Of a stretch of 64,000 bases of DNA, positions 1,875-57,173 are shown piece by piece. This stretch comes from Gyrodactylus bullatarudis. Lineage: Eukaryota; Platyhelminthes; Monogenea; Gyrodactylidea; Gyrodactylidae. The translations under genes were made by a program, and so were the position numbers. Each line of letters starts with the position of its first letter. Position 1 is the stretch's first letter. Under the pieces are notes generated by a model. The model was not told where the DNA came from. It made no database searches and was given only the letters and a program-made list of their open reading frames with translations. The stretch is taken from the NCBI GenBank assembly GCA_012064415.1, contig SSNU01000058.1:149453-213452 (forward strand), read 5' to 3'.

Positions 1875-3920
1875 ATGGCAACCAATAATGAAATTAAAAA
1901 ATCATATCTCAGTCCTAGCCACAATTCCTCGATAAATAGATCAAAATCTCCTAAAAAAGCCGCTAGCTCCTTTAGATATTCCCGGAATGATGACACTGCT
2001 TATGATGATTTAGTCAGGGTATCAAGTGATGAAGAAAGTGATTTCAACTCAACCGGTCCAAAGTCGAACATTTCAAAAACATCAAATGAGCACAAAAATT
2101 CTCTGCGCAACAGAAGCATGCGCATGGATTATTCCCAGGACTACTCAAACCACTTAAACTTGGAAGCCTCTGCAAAGTTGGGTAAATCCCGAGAAAATTA
2201 TTTGAATGAAATTACTGAGGAATCTCAGAACAGTGATAATGAAATTTCGGACAATTCAGATTTAGAAAAGGATTGTTCAGATGAAGGTGTAAACTATGAG
2301 TATAAACCAAAGAAAAGTTCTGGAATTCAGTGGTCCAACATACCAGAAACTCTAGAAGATTTAGTGATCGAATTTAAGAATCAAAAGCAGATCAACTCTC
2401 AAATTATTAAAGCTGTCTGCTGTCGGAATGATTGCAAGTGTGCATTCAAGAATGGAGAGCCTCTTTTACTTTTCCCAATGATGGATACTTATGTTGCATA
2501 CACTACGTGGGAGTTGGCCACTTCCTCTTCTAGTAGCTTTGCAAATGCAAATACAAAAAGTAGTACAAATCGTCAATTAATTGGAAACAATTCCAATAGT
2601 GTTAACTCCATCATGAAAGCTGATTCAGATTGTCAGGCAAAACTGATGCTTTTCAAGCAGTGCAGAGGTTGGTATGAAATTTTGAATGAAAGCAACGTTG
2701 CTGTTCCGTATTATACATCAGTTGACCAGATAAAACGTTCTAGGCCAAGCTCATTTATTACTAGAGAAAACATAAAAGTTTTGATAGCCCCTAAAAGCTT
2801 ACATATTCCCAAGGGTAAAATTAGTCCTGATTTATTACAGTATGCTCAGTCCTCAGAAATTATCGCTGAGAGCCAGCCAGCAATAATCAAGTCTGGTACA
2901 ATATTTAAATATATTGATTATTTTCCAAATTGCAAATTTGTTCGTGGTAAAAAGATTAAGTATATAAATTTAATATTTGTTATTGAGAAAATTCCCGGAA
3001 GTTTGGATCCCGAAAGTGAAGATTATCAGCGTTTCGTTTATATTGGGACAGAAGAAGCAAGTAGAGAATCCTATTTTCCAACTAGAGTCAGTCTTTCTAT
3101 TGTTGCTGGACCTGAAAATATTTCCGGTGTCCATACGATTGGAGGAATACTGAGAAAATTCCGGTTGCCAGTTTCAGTGAGGCCAGTGGCTGTTTGCTCA
3201 AACACTGCCTCAAATGCCTATCGAGATGGCCAAGTTGAACTACCAATTATGCCAGGATTAACTGTTACAGATAAACATTTTATGCGTATCCGATCGATAC
3301 ACTATGGTGATTTATTCATTCTTGCTTCAATAAACAATCCAGAGCGCTTATATATTATTACTACAAAAATGTTGCCCGATCATAATTTCTATCGAGGATC
3401 AACCCTCGACAAAAAGTATATTGAATTAACACGTCATCATAGCCTTCATGTATCCGAGTTCCTCTCAAACGGGCATAATTATTCATCAATGGAATATTTA
3501 TTAAAACATCTTCAAAAATCAAAGTATCCGGTGAAGTCATGTAAAAACAGTTATAACTCTAATTCAACAAAAGAAGATGTTGAGAGGATCTATGCAGCTA
3601 CAGGCCACGATCCTCGAGTTGGCCCTGAGTGTAATATGACGCCTAGTCAAGTGGATGAGGTTTATGATGAATTAGACGATATATACTTTTTCATAAGAAA
3701 TGGTTACTATCCTCCAAAGAAAACAAGCTACTCCCTTAGAAGTCGTGAGGCTATCTCTGTTAACGGGGATGGCCATGAGCAAACATTCAATGGACTTCAT
3801 CGAGATTTACAAAAGACTCCAAATAGTTCACAAAAACTTCAAAACTTTGGCGTACGTCGTGCTGATGAATTACTTGCTGAATCTCTCAATATCAACACAA
3901 AAGATCCTAATGAAATATAG
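1875..3920 (+). CDS. CABIT-domain-like protein (GAREM/THEMIS/Serrano type)
   Basis: Uninterrupted frame of 681 aa from an ATG to TAG. The first ~150 residues are Ser/Asn/Asp/Glu-rich and look disordered. Residues ~155-440 form a beta-rich region that I read as a CABIT module. It has an opening 'IPETLEDLV' element, a Cys-containing stretch (CCRNDCKC), and a hallmark 'SGVHTIGGILRKFRLPVSV' near residue 415, which resembles the GVH...FRLPv.VR pattern of CABIT proteins. GAREM and THEMIS proteins act as adaptors in receptor-tyrosine-kinase and antigen-receptor signalling; Drosophila Serrano acts in planar polarity. The tail (~590-681) contains VYDELDDIYFFIRNG and a basic, Ser-rich end. No SAM domain as in GAREM is visible. 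The gene has no intron although its neighbours have many, so a retrocopy origin is possible. An AATAAA lies ~40 bp after the stop. The frame being a gene is near certain; the family call is moderate. Confidence 0.6.
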   Translation: MATNNEIKKSYLSPSHNSSINRSKSPKKAASSFRYSRNDDTAYDDLVRVSSDEESDFNSTGPKSNISKTSNEHKNSLRNRSMRMDYSQDYSNHLNLEASAKLGKSRENYLNEITEESQNSDNEISDNSDLEKDCSDEGVNYEYKPKKSSGIQWSNIPETLEDLVIEFKNQKQINSQIIKAVCCRNDCKCAFKNGEPLLLFPMMDTYVAYTTWELATSSSSSFANANTKSSTNRQLIGNNSNSVNSIMKADSDCQAKLMLFKQCRGWYEILNESNVAVPYYTSVDQIKRSRPSSFITRENIKVLIAPKSLHIPKGKISPDLLQYAQSSEIIAESQPAIIKSGTIFKYIDYFPNCKFVRGKKIKYINLIFVIEKIPGSLDPESEDYQRFVYIGTEEASRESYFPTRVSLSIVAGPENISGVHTIGGILRKFRLPVSVRPVAVCSNTASNAYRDGQVELPIMPGLTVTDKHFMRIRSIHYGDLFILASINNPERLYIITTKMLPDHNFYRGSTLDKKYIELTRHHSLHVSEFLSNGHNYSSMEYLLKHLQKSKYPVKSCKNSYNSNSTKEDVERIYAATGHDPRVGPECNMTPSQVDEVYDELDDIYFFIRNGYYPPKKTSYSLRSREAISVNGDGHEQTFNGLHRDLQKTPNSSQKLQNFGVRRADELLAESLNINTKDPNEI

Positions 3921-18595: not shown

Positions 18596-21500
18596 ATGAA
18601 CGAACCTGAAATACTAATTGCTAAACCATTTATACAGGTGAGATAATTTGAAAATAACCTCAATTTATCCTTAATTATATTTACATGCTTACTGTCTTTG
18701 GAGTTGAAACTTTTAAGATATAAATCCTTAGTTTCAAAACATATTTCATATTTGCCACAGATCCTTGATGAATCAATGTGCGTCGTGAGAGAAGACATCA
18801 ATGATTGGCTTCAGAGGTATCTTTTCAATTCAGAAAACGTTTCACCAATTAATCCCGAATTTCTTCTCTATCGTCTTTCTTCTGGTATTTGGCTTGCTCG
18901 ATTGGCTTACAAACTCCATCATACAGTTTTTGCTCAAAGTGAGAATTCAGTCAGTATTACATCTACATTTGGAGCCCTTCGTGGTCGTCCACTCACAAAG
19001 AAAAGTCGAGAATTTCGTTTTTCTTCCAATTTGCTTGCCCTTGCAAAAAGATCGCTGGGAGAACTCGAGAAGGAAAATTATTCAGGTATTATTATTCTTT
19101 TTAAATTCCATAGAAGATTACATTATTTCGGAGGCCTCTTCATTCTCATCAGTAAATGATCTTGATTGTTCAAGATGTAAAATCTGTACTTTTGGCAACG
19201 GAGTCTTTAGTTCATCGGAAAAGTGTTCGCACACGACTTCCAAATCCTCCATGTCAGAATCTCAACAATCAAAATCTTTCAGTAAAATTTCAGCCTCTAA
19301 AAATTGGGAATTTCGAAGTAACGTTACAGCATTCCTTGAATGGTGCAAAGATCTCGGTATTAAAGAGACTGTTCTTTTCGAAACCAATGGTCTCAGTGAG
19401 TATTTAATTATTTTTTATGAAAATTTCCTCTAGAACCTAAAATATCCACGTTTAAGAATCAAAATTTTTAGAATATCTTCACAGGAATAAAAATACACTA
19501 ATATTGGATTTGTATCAAAGTTTACCATTTCAATTCTTGTTTGGTCAGTAAAACTAGTTCTATTAATAATAATTGCTGAGTCATTTGTAAATTAGATTTT
19601 CATCTGCTCACAATAGAATTTTTACTACTATTCCTATTGTATCAGGTATAAATGAATAAATTTTTTTCGATCAAATTACAGTTCTACATTCATGGTAGCT
19701 AGAGCATTAGTCATTATTGCTCCCATTATATTCTTTCCTAGTTGAAATTATACTTTTGGATAGATCTTGAATTCTCATTTGTAGTATGCTTTTACGAATA
19801 CGACTTTTAAACTTTGACCGTATGTGAGACAAATTTTACTATATTTGTTTTTTACCTATCTAAAAATTATTTACTTCTTCTGTAATAATAACAGTAATTG
19901 ATGATAAATTATTTTTGTTACTCTAATAAAAATTTTTTTTTTGAGAAACGCTGAGTATTTCGATGTACATTCTTTTTTACTGAGTGCAAAATGCTTCTCA
20001 TTCAAGAGAGATTGTATCTGTGACCGATAAAGAAATTGGTTTCATACTCATCACAGATAGATCACTACAAAAAGAGATTTTATTTGAATATTTTTGATAC
20101 AATGAATCTTTCTCAGTAAAGAGCAGACTTGGTAGTCCTATAAGGATTGCTTTCTGCAAAAGAATGGCGCTACTTGAGTTATTATGATCCAACCGATAGT
20201 TGTACTCTAAAAGTATTACAATCTATTTATAATAAGGAAAGATTAACTCAGGCTTTCCCTCTCAACTTGAACTTTCTTTGGGTGTTTTGTACGTCTCTAC
20301 TTATCTTGGGATTAAAATATTATAATAGATATAATACAACACATTAATTACCTGATATATTTATGTATATTATTCCTCTATCATCCAGATTATTTACTCT
20401 TTTATCATGGAAAAGCTTTAAATAAATAAGCATATCCATAAATTTATTTACGGATCATTTGGCTACGCCCTATGATTCTTCCTATTGTGTTCAGCATGAA
20501 CTTGATTTTCACCCTTACATCTGAAATACACCAATTCTCTTTCAGTTACTCTGAGCTATTCCATACCAAAAATAAACTAGCTATTCTGAGGTTATTAGCA
20601 AATAGTCATATTTTTCAAGTTGACTCTCATCAGGTTGTGGTCTAGGTAATAAAACACGTGTAATTTGAAGATATACTCTTTCTCGGAAATAATTCGAAAT
20701 TTATAAATAGTGCAATTTAGAAGTTTTATTTCAGAAGTAGACCCTGATCTGAATTGAATTTATATTCCCAACTTTTTCAAATTTCTCAAATTATTTGAAA
20801 AGTGCTATATTTGGATCTGTGTTATGGTAGATTGTGAAGCCTTCGTCCGCTTCAGCCAAAGAAGAATAGATTATCATACTTGAGCTCATTTAAACACATT
20901 TGTGTACTGTCATTCATGTCACGTAGAACCAGATAAATCTTTTGTGTTACAGTTTAACTGAATTTCCATTCACACCAAAATTTTTTTCTATTGAGGAATT
21001 TGAAATCTTGAAAATGTATTAAAAGTAAAGTAAAGCTATTCTCGATGAATTTGGGAGTTTATGATTTTTTAAACTTTGAGTTGGTATCAAGGTGTGAGAG
21101 GAATTAAACATTATTTTTCAGCATTACCAATAGACAAGGAAAAAATAATAGTCGTTGAGATTTTAGGAAACACTCCAAAAGTCTATTTCCTATTTTTCGA
21201 CCATATTTACTCATTGAAAATTAATAAATTAAGATGATCTGAGGTCAGTTGTTTCAAAAACTGAATAGTGAAAATTCGTATGTCTATTAATGATTCTGAA
21301 AAATGATTCCTCTCACACCTTGAAATCAAATTTTATCTTGCTTGAGATTCCTGATTTCTGCGAATATATTATCATTTTGCTGACTAATGTCTTTCATTTT
21401 GTAGGTAGAAAACGAAAATAGATTCTGGGAACTTTTCGAATTTTAATAATATTCTGTATAAATATTCATGTCGGTGTAGGGTCTGATGAGAACCGACGAA

Positions 21501-24500
21501 AATAAAGGGGCTCATATTCACCCAGAATCTATTTTCGTTTTCTACCTACAAACTGAAATACATTAATTAGCAAAATGATAAAAAATTCACCTCTTTAAGT
21601 TTAAAAAAATGGAAGAATGGCGCCAACTCGAAATTTTAAATGTCTCCAGTTTTTTCAATTTTTTCATAAATCGTTTAAAAAATATTGAGAAAATTTCGAG
21701 ACTTCATGATTTTTACAAAATCTCATTTTTTCATCAAAGTTCTTCTACATACTACATAGTTGTCGAGCATAGTTGTCGTATCGAAACGTCTGGAAGAGGC
21801 TTACATTCCAATTAAATTTCATAATGTAACTTTATCGGACCAACAAAACAACTTTGATGAGGCTGATTTGAGAAATATTCTTGAAAAATTTCAAGTTTTC
21901 GAATATATGGACAATTTATGTAATTTTTTCGAATGGATCATGTTATCATGATCTCATATCTTTAAATACATTTCTACTCTGGAATTGGTTTAAAATTCTT
22001 GGTCATGCAGATATACATATTTTAATATAAAAATAACGATAACGAATTATTCTGGAATACACAAGCGACTGTTGCCCTTAGATGAAAAAAAGTATTTTTT
22101 TCAAATTCTCAGGTCAAAGAGAAAATCCGAGATAAGTTTGAGATTAACTCGTAGTTATTTCTCTTTCCACTTTTATTAACCTTGGTGTATTGAATATTCT
22201 CTCTCCAACTGGTAAATTCTGTGTTGAATGAAAATCATTAGTGAATTCACGTTCTTTTTGAAACACACTTGCATCATTGAAGCAGATTAAAATCAACTAT
22301 TGATAATGTCTTTTGAGAATTACAGAGAACTAAAGAGTATATCTTTTTCTGAATAGTTATTTACTAGGCTAGGTTGAAATATATTTTTCTCCAAACAACT
22401 CACGAGAGTACTAAAGTTTGTCAGCAAATTTAGTACTCAGATCATTTTTTGCATATTTTTGAATTGTGAAAGTCATTCTTCATTATGGCGTTGCCTATTT
22501 TTCCCACACTATCTCACGGGCATGATAAAACAAAGAAATCCACCATGAAGGCCCTCTTGATGATAAGATTACTATTTTTGAAGATAAAACTTAAGAAATC
22601 CATTAAATGACTGAGATATTCCAGATTTTATTGCTTCATTTAGTGAAAATTGAGCCTCGATTTGAGAAATTATGGATTTTTAAAATGATAGCATTATGAA
22701 CACATGCTTCAATACAAAATGACGCTTAGAATTGATAGTTCTATCAGAAAAGTTGATATTAATATGGAGTTAAAAATTTCATCCTACCCTATTATTCACT
22801 GAATAATATTCAGTAATAAAATTTTTGTTTTGCATCTATTTCAAAATGTCTGCAGAAAATTCCGACTCTAGATCCCTTTGATATCTTTTATTCGAACGAG
22901 ATAGCTCATAGTAGTTTTTTTCAAGCCATTCTTTAATTCATTCAATTGGTATCATCTTTTAACAAACCCCTCAGGAATCTACAATCTAAAATGATTCACT
23001 CCAATAAATACTATTACCAAGAGAATATCAGCCCTAAATTAATTTTAAAATGCACTTATCTCAAAAGCATGGGAATTGTATTTTCAAGTGATAGTGTTTT
23101 ACATATGGGAAAAACGTGTTGAATCATTTCATCCTTCTTGGGTCAATTGATGAATGATCAAACATCTGTGGCCAAACATTAATATTTTATTCTTCTCTAC
23201 TTTTTTTCTTCAAAAGATTCTATACAAAATCTTTGTAGAAGGAATGTAGACTCTAATTAGAGAGAAACTCTAATATTTGCAGATTAAATCCATCTGAACA
23301 AAGATAGAAATTAAATATCGAGTATATATTTAGTTCAAAGAGAGAGAGTTTGTCTGAATCAACTTATTTCTTCTAGCTTAAATCTTTCTTTCAACTTATT
23401 AAAAGATTAAGATGGTATTTTAAACCCAACCAAAAGAGGAGTAAATAATATTGAAACTCGTAATATATTTTAGTAGGTAGCTTGAAAAGCTAATCATAAA
23501 TGCAAATTATATACAAATATAGATCCCTTTCTCAAGAAAAGATAACGAGCTCTGTCAAACCATACCCTTCTAATTAATTGTTCCAAGGATTTCCATTGTT
23601 TGATTATTTTAGAGAGTCTGATGAGAACCGGTGAAATAAACGCTTTCTATGACTAAAAATATTCACCCGTCTTCTAAATTCTCTAATTAGAAATGAATAT
23701 CTCTACAAATTATATAGCTAGTTTTATAATTTTTAAATAAAACAAAAATTACTAAAGCTGGTTGAAAGGAAGTTTGCAATCGATTCTTCAAATGGTAAAA
23801 GTGGGCCTCATAATCTAGATTTCAGAAATTCTTAAAACATTTGTTTTTTTTGTAGAAAATTGAGATTTTCTAGTTCAACTCGTATTAATTTCGTACTAAT
23901 TTCTAACAGCGTAAAGGCAATATTTCATAATAAACTGTTGATTCATTGATAATAGGGCAGCTGATCTCGAGAAGAGAATTCGATTTTTATTCGAAACTAA
24001 TTTTCACAGGACTCTGTTCGAATTGATAATTATCTATTACTCATGACTATTTGAACAGACTTACTACTTGATCTTCTAATTAAGAATACTTGGTGAATCA
24101 CTTGAAATAAATTTTACCTTTTTATATTGAATGACTCATGGCAGAAAATTTCTCGAATTAATTATAATTATTATTGCTATAAATCGAAAATTCCAGACAT
24201 GATGAACTTGTTTTTCATCATTATCCCAGTGTACTTGAAACTAACCTTGGACTTTAGTCTACCGAATCCTCCCTCAAAATTTTTTCTGTATTGCGCATTT
24301 TCTAGATCTGCTTCCAATGTAGTTTAGAGACCATAAACCCTTTCATTAGACAAAAAAGTATACTTCTTAATAGCATGAACAGAGACTCTGTACTATTGAG
24401 AAATTTTTCTGTCCCAAATTTATTTCAGAGTCTTACCAACTACAAAGATACTCAAAATAAAATTTCCCAATTACAATTAGATAGTAAAACAGCTATTTTC

Positions 24501-36870: not shown

Positions 36871-39800
36871 TTAAATTAAATCAACTAACTTTCTTTCAAA
36901 CCAGTTGACAACTTCATTGAGGAAGAGTAGACAAACAGCCCATAAAATTGTAATTATAAGGAACAGCATATTGATGTTAAATAAGAAATTGGTCAGGAAT
37001 ATTTCAACATGAAATACGAGTATTATAACCAACCTTAGGAAATTGGGTAGAATAGAACAAGATTAGACAAATTCATGAGAGAAAGAAACTTACAAGAATA
37101 GCACAGCAAATAGCCAGTAGTAGCTGATGGATTTTCGAAACTTGGTGATGAATTGTCCAAAGTTGATGTAAGAGAACGAGATTATGGCTAGAAAACAGGA
37201 AGAAATTCCATTATTTGAAATCGCTTATTGGGAAATTTGAAGAAACTAAAATTTACTTTTGACTCTTTAAGGCTTCCTTAGTTTTTCAGTAAAAAGTTAT
37301 TGACAAAAATTTATACTCACATAAATAAATGAAGAAGAAAATATTCATAAATGACTGTACTCGAACGAGGTTCTTCAATTTTTCAACGTCCCTGGAAAAT
37401 AGAAAATCATATTGTACTGTTACAAGATGATACCAATGATTTCATAAATAAGGCCTTTTTTTCAGGGATACTCATAAGTTGTGATACATCCCATATAAGT
37501 GCAAATTTACAAAAAATGTATTCTCAGCTCCAGAAAACCATATTAAATAGTATAATCTGGTTGAAGGTGTTCTGGAAATATCAATGGATATTTAAACTTC
37601 GAGTTAATACCAGATAATTAGTTAAGATATTTTATGCCAAATGACAGAAATTGGCTTAAAACACAGTGATTATTCGTAATAAGTTTTAATCTGACAAAAC
37701 CAGTTAAGTTCTATATCATGAGACAATTGATATTTTGAGAAGAATTCATGATTTCTAAAAATTCATGTTTTTCTTGAAATTCGGATTATAACAATATGAA
37801 TACTAATTGGTAGTTTTTTTCTTAGACAATAGGCCTAGTTGAAGAGGAATGAACAAATAGAACATGATGCGTCATGCTACTCATGACTGAGGCAATACAT
37901 TTTTGATATGCTTCTTGCTTTTCTTTTCTTAGTCCGAAAATAAGGTTGCTAATGACCTATGTTGGGATTTATGACAAACATCAGTTGGTGAGAATTTACG
38001 AATTGAAAAAATTTGATCCAGAACTCGATGAAGATGGAATATTTCTCGAAATCCAGATTCTAATCATGAAGAGCAAAAAATTTGACTTGTATTTAAATTT
38101 AAAATTTATTCTCACTTTTTTGGACTTCAAGTTAAAATTTTGTGATGATTCCAGTTTGATTGAGTGATTAAAAATCAAGAAAACCAAAGATTGCCTAATT
38201 TTCGCGGTAATTTAATAAAATTTTACGATCATGGCGTATTGAGATTTAGTCTTCAAAAAATAAAGATGAGAGATATTTATTATTCTGTGTAAAGTAAATT
38301 TTTCAGAACCCCAAAGAGTTCATAGTTACTTACTCATTAGCGCTGATGTAACAAGTGAAAGATTTCAACTCGAATTGCTCACAATGATCAATGAACATGA
38401 AGAAATAAACTCCAGTGCAAAATATGGTAGTGGGCAGAAATCTAAATATAATAGCCAGAATATTTCTCTTTATACGTTCTTTAGTGAATAACTTGTCTCT
38501 TTTAATTGGTGTGTCTTTGATGGAGATTGAGTTTTCAACTTTTCTGTTCATTATTACAAAGCTCATGATTGGACAGAATATAAACTTTGATATCAACAAG
38601 AACAAAGAATTGTCAAAGATCAATGGAATCTTACTCTTGTACTCGTATTCTTGGCATAAATCGAACCAGCGGGAACCAATAGAGGTAATGATGTTGTTCA
38701 TTTGAACTGAAGAGTTTTGTCGAAAACTAGGCAATTCTTCGTTTGTCTCTTGTATTAGAATGAAGGGTGTTAAGAGAATGACAAGAAGTAAGTACAAATG
38801 AACTGTTGACGTAAAACTGAGACTGAACAATAGGGCCAGATAAGTATTGTTGAGGAGAATGTGTGACTAATAAATAGAAAAATATGATGAAAATTAACTC
38901 GTGGAGTTATCCATTTATTAAAAAATTGTTCCATAACTTTTGCTATGGTACATCAAAGAAATAAATTATTAATTATTACTAATAACTTATAACTAAAAAA
39001 TTTTCAATTAAATTGAAGTAGACAAGCTCAGAAGGGTTGAAAATAACTTACTTGCTGAATGAATGAGTAAATATTAAAGCCGGCAGTTTCCATTTGTGTT
39101 ACAATTGGAGTGAACGCACTGGCAAGATAACACGCCAAATTTTCGGCCTGCAAGTTACTCGCCTTGAATAATGGAATTGAATAGGATGTGTCAAGCTGGA
39201 AAAAGCGAATAAAATTTCTTGAAATATATAAGATTGATGGATGAATTTTTAGTTTAGAAAAATTAATAGCTAATTAATCAATCATGTAAGGAATGACGAT
39301 TCAGTAAAAAAGGATTCAGCAATTTGTTTTTAATAAGATTTAAATATAGGGATTATAAATTAAGAAATATTTACCTGTATTCTAGAAAAGATTAAATTCA
39401 TAAAACATTGTAGTAAAGAGTGACAGGGGAAATTTTAGTACCAAAACATACTCTCTTATACTTTCGACAGTTGATTGGAAAATTATTTGAAGAAATAAGT
39501 TGGGTATGTTCATCTGCGTCGAAATCATCGTTTATCCTTTTGTAACCTAAACAGTAAAATTCAAAATTACTTGATCATAAGTAGGAATTTTTCAGTTTTG
39601 TCAATTTTATTTACAGTTAATTTACCAATGAATCAAATACTAATTATAATTAATAGGAAGATTTTAGTTTATAATCTCTAAATTTGGCGAAATCCTTTGA
39701 AAGTATATAGAATACACACAGTAGACTTGGACGAAACTTTCCAAAACTACAAAAATCGCCTATCGATATGATAAAATTAATCTTCGTGAATTTTAACAAA

Positions 39801-56200: not shown

Positions 56201-56349
56201 TCTAGGCTCAGGGAGAAATATCCTGAGCTAAGAGAAAATAATTTTTTTATCAATTCATTTTTTTGTCGGATAGATGTTTTTTAACATTGGTTTTGAGCTG
56301 GGTTACCGATGTCATGAGATTTAAAGTAAAAAGATGCCAGGGATTTTTC

Positions 56350-56391
56350 TCACAAATAAGGCCTTTATTTCGGGCATACTCATCAGTGTGA
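56350..56391 (-). ncRNA. Hammerhead ribozyme, left arm of palindrome
   Basis: The reverse complement of this stretch is identical to 56525-56566, including CTGATGA (56386-56380), GAAA and the five-pair helix I (TCACA with TGTGA). Confidence 0.7.
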
Positions 56392-56524
56392 TACATGCCA
56401 AATATATTTAGAATTAAATTATTGGTTGAAATTGTTCTTAAAATTCGATTGGATCATACCTGTTTCAATTTCATACAATTTCAACCAATAATTTAATTCT
56501 AAAAACCTATATATTTGGCATGTA

Positions 56525-56566
56525 TCACACTGATGAGTATGCCCGAAATAAAGGCCTTATTTGTGA
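56525..56566 (+). ncRNA. Hammerhead ribozyme, right arm of palindrome
   Basis: Helix I strand TCACA (56525-56529), CTGATGA (56530-56536), 8-nt helix II segment GTATGCCC, GAAA (56545-56548), helix III of 4 bp (ATAA with TTAT, loop AGGCC), cleavage triplet ATT (56559-56561), then TGTGA (56562-56566) pairing perfectly with TCACA. All invariant core positions are present. The NUH triplet ends in U, allowed but usually slower. Helix II has a single G-C pair, as in the other copies here. Confidence 0.7.
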
Positions 56567-57173
56567 GAAAAAATCCTGGCATCTTTTTACTTTAAATCTC
56601 ATTTTTTTATTTTAAATTTCTTCTACCTGCGCATTACCTATTTTTATAAGAACTGGCGTAGACCATTAGACTGGTTATTTACATAATAATCAATGATGGA
56701 GGAAGAAATTACTGCATTAATACAAACGACATATTCAAGAGTACTTTTATTTCTATTGTGAATTTTACTCGTAATTTCCTATTGATTAATTTTTCCTATA
56801 TTCCACACTTTTTATAAAGGGAAATTAAAATTTATTTGTATCATTTAGGAAAATTATTTCATCTTACAGAACGAGTTCGAGAACGCCTCTAAAAAATTGA
56901 AAAGCTACATTCTTCTAGAATTCTTATGATAGTACAAATGGTAAAAATACAGCCGAAAATTTTTTATTAGCTATTAAAGAAACAACCCAAATATAGGATG
57001 GAAATATAGGATTTAGAAATCAGACAATTCCATAATTATGGACTCAAATAATACTCGGCGAAGAGTGACAGATGTAGACGCATTTCGTCCATATGATAAA
57101 ACTTAACTGTTTAAAATAATGATTAAAATAAATTACTTTTGGTAAAAAAATAACTCTTTTAAATGTGACTTAC

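Follow-up and report, generated by a model that had tools for sequence, protein, structure and literature searches.

A hammerhead-bearing palindrome in Gyrodactylus bullatarudis as a probable Penelope-like element insertion

The palindrome and its hammerhead motifs

The DNA analyzed here (the window) is a 64,000-nucleotide stretch of the Gyrodactylus bullatarudis genome (contig SSNU01000058.1, positions 149,453 to 213,452), in which positions 56314-56602 form a palindrome. An inverted-repeat search of the window returned arms at 56314-56407 and 56509-56602 (94 nt, 98% complementary) and inner arms at 56407-56435 and 56475-56503 (29 nt, 100%), which bears out the inverted duplication described in an earlier note made from the letters of this DNA. 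The parts of a hammerhead ribozyme that were listed there (CTGATGA, 8 nt, GAAA, a 4-bp helix III, ATT, and a 5-bp helix I) were likewise found in place. On the + strand, the 5' strand of helix I (TCACA, 56525-56529) is followed by the core CTGATGA (56530-56536), an 8-nt helix II segment (56537-56544), GAAA (56545-56548), helix III (ATAA/TTAT, 56548-56551 and 56557-56560), T56561 as H17, after which cleavage is predicted, and the 3' strand of helix I (TGTGA, 56562-56566). Loop III (AGGCC, 56552-56556, + strand) holds the palindrome GGCC, a possible dimer contact. Upstream of helix I, GGCAT (56517-56521, + strand) can pair as a pseudoknot with ATGCC in loop II (56539-56543, + strand), an assignment based on co-variation across families. 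Together with this pseudoknot strand, the hammerhead occupies 56517-56566 on the + strand. The copy on the - strand (56350-56399) mirrors it, with predicted cleavage between 56355 and 56354 and with C3 at 56386. The motifs can be read on both strands, as had been claimed, and the ribozyme reading survives the comparison of core and flanks given below.

The CUGAUGA..GAAA core, helices I and III, and an NUH site are all present. Helix III consists of A-U pairs only in the family to which the window hammerhead belongs. Hammerheads usually have a stem II of 2 or more bp; the helix II segment reported earlier is present, but it allows a single base pair, G56537-C56544. This 1-bp stem II is not counted against membership in the hammerhead class, because the Rfam model RF03152 and one published case, described in the available part of PMC3088659, have the same feature. 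In the window, the core pattern CTGATGAN{3,25}GAAA gave 7 matches, both palindrome copies included, compared with a mean of 2.41 in shuffled sequence; none of 100 window shuffles attained 7.

The covariance-model search that the earlier note proposed brought no Rfam family to its gathering score in the window. The sole hammerhead match was to RAGATH-1 (RF03152), with 16.5 bits (E = 0.87) when 98 nt were searched and 15.6 bits (E = 7) on 521 nt, far from the gathering score of 56.3 bits, and the window motif is not assigned to that family. Across the genome, RF03152 was found at 2 places among the 58 of 24,239 candidates scored; neither is the window site, and the top score was 31.3 bits. At E ≤ 10 the model also matches in 8 of 14 control genomes. 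Given these control matches and the absence of the window site, the weak RF03152 match carries little weight. Permissive Rfam scans also gave many microRNA-precursor matches, of the sort that we would expect any long hairpin to yield.

Elsewhere, the window holds a 681-aa ORF (1875-3920) matching flatworm proteins, several of which bear the name CABIT-domain protein (the top match, at 35%, is from Cichlidogyrus casuarinus), and a second palindrome at 21362-21588 (68-nt arms, 91%). Between the arms of the latter lies one hammerhead of another family, at about 21463-21530 (helix I GGGT/ACCC, pseudoknot GTCGGT/ACCGAC), which is also the family of the genome stretches L053, L057, L068, and L072. 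In L072 (positions 1-281), two hammerheads of this 21.4-kb family stand head to head with only ~100 bp between them, closer together than the inverted pair at 56314-56602.

Insertion structure and coding relatives

The palindrome lies in an inserted unit of 334 bp (56265-56598), which is flanked by an exact 10-bp repeat, TCATTTTTTT, at 56255-56264 on the left and 56599-56608 on the right, annotated here as a target-site duplication. We read the unit as a Penelope-like element (PLE) whose sense strand is the - strand of the window. From left to right, it consists of a 49-nt tail (56265-56313, - strand), delimited with the help of other arm ends, which extends the sense pLTR at its 3' side and ends at ...CTATCCGAC beside the duplication; the sense-oriented, 5'-truncated pLTR that forms the left arm (56314-56464, - strand); a 10-nt filler at the central junction (56465-56474), which repeats part of the neighboring GAAATTG; and the inverted pLTR without a tail that forms the right arm and the 5' end of the PLE insertion (56475-56598, + strand). 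The arms are defined by the inverted repeat and by alignment to the longer arms of stretch L008, against which both halves of the window unit align, meeting across the filler. A second, A-rich 10-nt word is shared by the two sides farther out than the chosen duplication. Because the chosen duplication flanks the tail on its outside and the end of the other arm, the whole palindrome and its tail most likely arrived in one event.

The genome of 77.3 Mb (471 contigs) contains at least 94 matches to the arms, with 40 of 845 candidates scored, and 34 stretches around arm matches were taken for comparison. From 60 arm hits in genome stretches, 35 arm ends were chosen and inspected by eye. Beyond ATGAGATTTAAAG, the same extension as in the window is present at 21 of these ends, and the other 14 pass into unrelated flanks, mostly beginning just before TTTAAAG. 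We identify the terminal extension as the PLE tail and the arms as pLTRs; the combination of direct or inverted pLTRs with a tail on one of them is that of PLEs. Short target duplications also agree with PLEs: in a plain count of exact matches, words of 10-13 nt occur at both ends of 5 of the 9 elements for which the two ends could be compared, the window included. At L006, L007, L011, and L024 these words measure 11-13 nt and in part overlap the arm ends. A convincing duplication is absent from the other four of the nine (none at L008, L025, or L030; a 9-nt word at L017 was not counted). Inverted ends with a target duplication could also mark a DNA transposon (or MITE) bounded by long terminal inverted repeats, in which the hammerhead-like core would be incidental. 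We regard that reading as scarcely credible: the ends are asymmetric, as 8 of the 9 elements carry the extension at a single end and one (L017) lacks it at both, the body of relatives encodes a reverse transcriptase (RT) and a GIY-YIG endonuclease (EN), and the hammerhead has a conserved core with co-varying helices.

The coding evidence comes from genome relatives of the arms. In L045, a single ORF carries RVT_1 (2.6e-14) and GIY-YIG (4e-5), both above the Pfam cut-offs. The GIY-YIG domain (residues 352-430, 24.3 bits against a cut-off of 22.6) lies C-terminal to the RT, as in PLEs, and an RT domain in autonomous relatives is likewise a PLE trait. An antisense hammerhead stands upstream and a sense hammerhead downstream of this coding sequence. 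Beside the same pLTR, Pfam detected RVT_1 in L015 (30.6 bits, cut-off 29.6) and GIY-YIG in L017 (21.8 bits, just below 22.6). Pieces of L009 and L022 resemble RT/EN by eye, and a Pfam search of these pieces gave 0 families. Among 20 protein relatives, including those from Trichobilharzia and Paragonimus, RVT_1 and/or PF26215 is shown. L074 has an intact ORF of 732 aa (61% identity) with a sense hammerhead downstream; its upstream repeat is a copy of the ORF end rather than a pLTR, and the stretch is partly unreadable. Of nine further RT-EN stretches, L043-L051, which match the L017 query at 67-80% identity, eight have a PLE hammerhead and L043 has none. Within the window, the 56 nt at 37442-37497 match a portion of the pLTR arm at 86% identity and are perhaps a fragment of a related PLE, and 23600-23660 holds another CTGATGAGAACCGGTGAAA motif, whose helices are damaged and which is probably what remains of a PLE hammerhead after decay.

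Matches to the hammerhead core are abundant in this genome. The pattern CTGATGAGN{2,20}CGAAA has 516 + 497 matches (1,013), compared with 8 + 5 (13) for the reversed pattern, and a 37-nt ribozyme string has 148 + 124 matches at up to 3 mismatches, with a control count of 0. Among the 100 core-pattern places listed, the gap is 6 nt in 71 and 7 nt in 18, and neighbors within 2.5 kb are arranged as -+ in 16 cases, -- in 1, and +- in 1. For the 100 ribozyme-string places listed, which overlap with the former, the corresponding pairs are 14 -+, 1 ++, and 1 +-. We also compared 37 of 108 RT-EN matches with the 100 ribozyme-string places and 18 of the 100 listed core-pattern places. Within 700 bp downstream of RT-EN, all hammerheads are sense (17 of 17), and within 2.5 kb upstream 6 are antisense and 1 is sense; for 20 of the 37 matches, no downstream hammerhead is among the places listed. 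A direct form also exists, with sense hammerheads on either side of RT-EN (C212). Head-to-head pLTRs are the common paired form among the matches listed.

The earlier note proposed a foldback ribozyme element. As an independent kind of element, this would be a self-standing inverted dimer that replicates as a unit and uses a self-cleaving RNA on both strands. Although the motifs on both strands, the strong palindrome, and the existence of other head-to-head pairs in the genome are what such an element would show, its junction is not repeated: a 28-nt string across the center of the palindrome has a single match in 77 Mb when up to 3 mismatches are allowed, and the window palindrome therefore did not multiply as a unit. 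The short complete elements L006, L007, and L011 have middles that differ from that of the window, and in other copies, arms of this type border PLE coding sequence. The search for genome copies that had been suggested recovered relatives in which the ribozyme diverges less than the arms, but no second copy of the junction, and a foldback element is very improbable. The proposal gives way to a PLE insertion with head-to-head pLTRs. We put the probability that the palindrome is a body-less, 334-bp PLE insertion carrying a hammerhead at roughly 0.9, a figure that covers PLE insertion and hammerhead jointly and leaves the priming route outside.

Conservation and co-variation of the predicted ribozyme

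Genome copies in which the core mutates as fast as its flanks were named in the earlier note as evidence against a ribozyme. In the 43 motif-spanning arms among 53 hits, the 50-nt ribozyme diverges by 0.029 and the remaining arm by 0.107 (2.9% versus 10.7%). With near flanks trimmed and only substitutions counted, the values are 0.023 in the ribozyme versus 0.065 on the 5' side and 0.050 on the 3' side, with a P value of 3e-4 that is indicative, as arms within one element are not independent. The full 13-nt core is kept in 26 of the 43 arms by alignment and in 27 by pattern; single copies decay while the family retains the core. Both arms of L008 (locus 1496-2426) carry an A14-to-G core change (GAGA), so a copy whose hammerhead was presumably inactive nonetheless became inserted, or else the change passed from one arm to the other by later conversion.

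Co-variation was assessed in 44 distinct motifs, including further hammerhead families from short stretches around other listed sites. These motifs were gathered by the core pattern, and the constancy of their core reflects that selection; their pairing does not. The counts leave out the duplicates L001-L005 and L040-L042 and, for the pseudoknot in loop II bases alone, also L074. Pairs were counted by script, since MAFFT, when applied to 38 motifs, failed to line up GAAA in those with a 7-nt loop II. Clustering of motifs at 72% identity merged 64 of 65 and was dropped. Helix I of at least 4 bp together with helix III of at least 3 bp can form in 24 of the 44 motifs, compared with a mean of 8.9 and a maximum of 16 in 500 partner swaps. 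A pseudoknot of at least 5 bp between loop II and the strand just upstream of helix I can form in 28 of the 44 when loop II bases alone are used (500 swaps: mean 20.3, maximum 26) and in 32 of the 44 when both stem II bases are allowed (mean 23.0, maximum 30). The swap means are high because many motifs come from one family. Of the motifs that fail (16, or 12, on the pseudoknot and 20 on the helices), many look decayed. A coarser count, in which 12 of 28 distinct loop/upstream combinations reach 5 bp compared with 25% of mismatched ones, gives a weaker contrast.

The variants illustrate how the paired strands change together. Helix I occurs as TCACA/TGTGA, GGGT/ACCC, TAAGT/ACTTA, GTAAGGT/ACCTTAC, and AAAG/CTTT, helix III as ATAA/TTAT, ATAGAG/CTTTAT, ATAAA/TTTAT, and AATAAAA/TTTTATT, and the pseudoknot as GGCAT/ATGCC, GACAT/ATGTC, GTCGGT/ACCGAC, GTTGG/CCAAC, CCGGG/CCCGG, and GCCGG/CCGGC. 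Some pseudoknots use C11.1; in families such as GTCGGT/ACCGAC, this longest form would compete with the lone stem II pair. Loop III contains a perfect palindrome of at least 4 nt in 12 of 15 representatives, which were picked by hand from the 44 motifs with the three lacking a palindrome counted; 2 of 5,000 shuffles attain 12.

A chance core match that lacks ribozyme activity, conserved through some other pLTR function such as a promoter or protein binding, has several points in its favor, namely the single pair of stem II, the A-U-only helix III, the lack of an Rfam match at gathering level, and the finding that the hammerhead of the Anolis PLE (PAc) cleaves only with protein added (PMC11167929). 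Across families, however, the paired strands of helix I, helix III, and the pseudoknot change in concert, and we consider the chance reading improbable.

Proposed integration route, expected ribozyme state, and known systems

Two lines of published work bear on how the head-to-head form arises. According to the available part of PMC3846280, Adineta Penelope copies have inverted pLTRs, one of which bears a tail of 31 bp, and duplications that measure 8, 9, and 10 bp; their inverted pLTRs most often stand head to head, and its authors favor self-priming on an antisense template. In Anolis, the PAc protein cuts each of the two target strands and extends it, and reverse transcription begins at two internal sites, which mark the limits of the tail (PMC11167929). 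By combining these findings, we infer a head-to-head joining of two primed cDNAs. The PLE reverse transcriptase/GIY-YIG endonuclease would have written the 334-bp insertion by nicking both strands of an AT-rich target, each nick priming cDNA synthesis at one of two internal RNA start sites ~49 nt apart, so that one arm would receive a tail and the other would not. The two short cDNAs would then have been linked in head-to-head orientation across a small filler, and the 10-bp target duplication would remain. Because a minimal type I hammerhead sits in each pLTR, such a pair bears one ribozyme per strand. The tail asymmetry in the window fits this two-start-site route.

Alternatively, the same PLE could have reached its head-to-head form through self-priming (hairpin formation) on one strand, as proposed for Adineta Penelope in the accessible part of PMC3846280. 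Both arms of an element can have private changes in common, as expected from a single source: after trimming of flank bases, the arms of L030 differ by 1 from each other and by 7 and 8 from the nearest other arm, and those of L008 differ by 0. Such shared changes fit one source RNA under either priming model. Self-priming sits less well with a tail on one arm only, with a 10-nt filler at the window junction in place of a clean fold-back point, and with the extension of both target strands and the two tail-bounding start sites of PAc (PMC11167929), and we hold it to be possible but rather unlikely. Anolis hammerhead mutants insert equally well (PMC11167929), and the A14-to-G change in both arms of L008 agrees that insertion needs no cleavage.

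The expectation that the arms would anneal in a full-length transcript is supported by structure prediction: the transcript of the full palindrome folds into one hairpin (minimum free energy, -192.9 kcal/mol; z, -30.6) that pairs both cores, and its hammerheads are expected from this model to be mostly silent. An excerpt of PMC11722881 states that viroid hammerheads placed opposite one another in a rod-like fold act only while transcription is under way. The ribozyme of the window palindrome would be a passenger silenced by the hairpin, and the most likely task of such ribozymes would be to process multimeric sense transcripts of fuller elements, with cleavage probably occurring as a dimer or with help from protein. 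In direct pLTR-ORF-pLTR transcripts, two sense copies could dimerize through loop III. Small hammerheads associated with PLEs are reportedly dimeric (Lunse et al.). The available part of PMC7761336 also reports that PLE hammerheads dimerize, and the loop III palindromes fit published dimeric cleavage. The same source calls the role of PLE hammerheads a mystery, and, together with the part of PMC6155905 at hand, it describes these ribozymes as being without characteristic tertiary interactions. We tentatively suggest, as a doubtful but possible reading, that a distinct PLE-hammerhead architecture is present here, in which a 1-bp stem II would in effect be replaced by the co-varying loop II/upstream helix, the palindromic loop III would let two sense ribozymes dimerize, and the head-to-head hairpin would silence both, with pLTR orientation deciding RNA processing.

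The pseudoknot is the most interesting feature that remains, as PLE hammerheads, inverted pLTRs, tails, hammerhead pseudoknots, a one-pair stem II, and palindromic loop III have each been published already. The arrangement that was thought possibly new is one of these, since inverted pLTRs are described for PLEs in PMC3846280 (available part). The premise that Penelope repeats are direct or tandem, while stated as direct also in the accessible text of PMC11722881, is incomplete for the same reason. In the open-licence literature, the mentions of pseudoknots in PMC11722881, PMC7936874, PMC7761336, and PMC4926735 and 12 of the 14 in PMC10085705 do not describe one in PLE hammerheads, the word is absent from PMC11167929, and nothing was found that mentions RAGATH-1 together with the hammerhead ribozyme. 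The pseudoknot may nevertheless be known already, because the Rfam RAGATH-1 consensus looks compatible with it. The striking palindrome becomes readable as a product of PLE integration, and a genome with ~1,000 ribozyme core matches in several co-varying families should be useful for studying the folding of PLE hammerheads and any part that these play in mobility.

Among known systems, animal retrozymes resemble the window in having type I hammerheads in small repeats, but their repeats are direct and tandem in the available part of PMC7229834, whereas close pairs here are mainly -+ among the places listed, and the window element does not belong with them. Viroids with hammerheads on both polarities, which face each other in a rod-like hairpin as in the window (PMC11722881, in the part available), are replicating circular RNAs, whereas the window holds a DNA insertion; the likeness is one of working only. 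RAGATH-1 (RF03152) has the same type I order, the same core, and a 1-bp stem II in its model. By our own reading, CCAAG upstream and CUUGG in loop II of its consensus could pair as in the window, but its strand lies in an upstream hairpin loop, whereas that of the window lies 3 nt from helix I. The hammerheads of PMC3088659 share several features with that of the window: a pseudoknot in the stem I/II region in about 40% of cases, a very short stem II with a single pair in one case, and, in repeat-type hammerheads, a palindromic stem/loop III suggested to form dimers. Unlike the window hammerhead, they are not described as parts of PLE pLTRs in the available text of that source.

The closest counterparts are the PLEs with GIY-YIG, namely, the Adineta vaga Pen families (PMC3846280, available part) and Anolis PAc (PMC11167929). 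As far as the sources at hand describe them, they share with the G. bullatarudis elements an ORF combining RT and GIY-YIG, the pLTRs with an inverted pLTR at the 5' side and an optional tail on one, target duplications, AT-rich targets, and 5' truncation. In Anolis PAc, the hammerhead likewise lies in the pLTR/ORF start (PMC11167929). The window insertion differs from both in that the body is absent and a 334-bp palindrome remains, in its tail of 49 nt compared with 31 or 30-40 nt (in the accessible descriptions), and in a hammerhead of different sequence that carries a pseudoknot.
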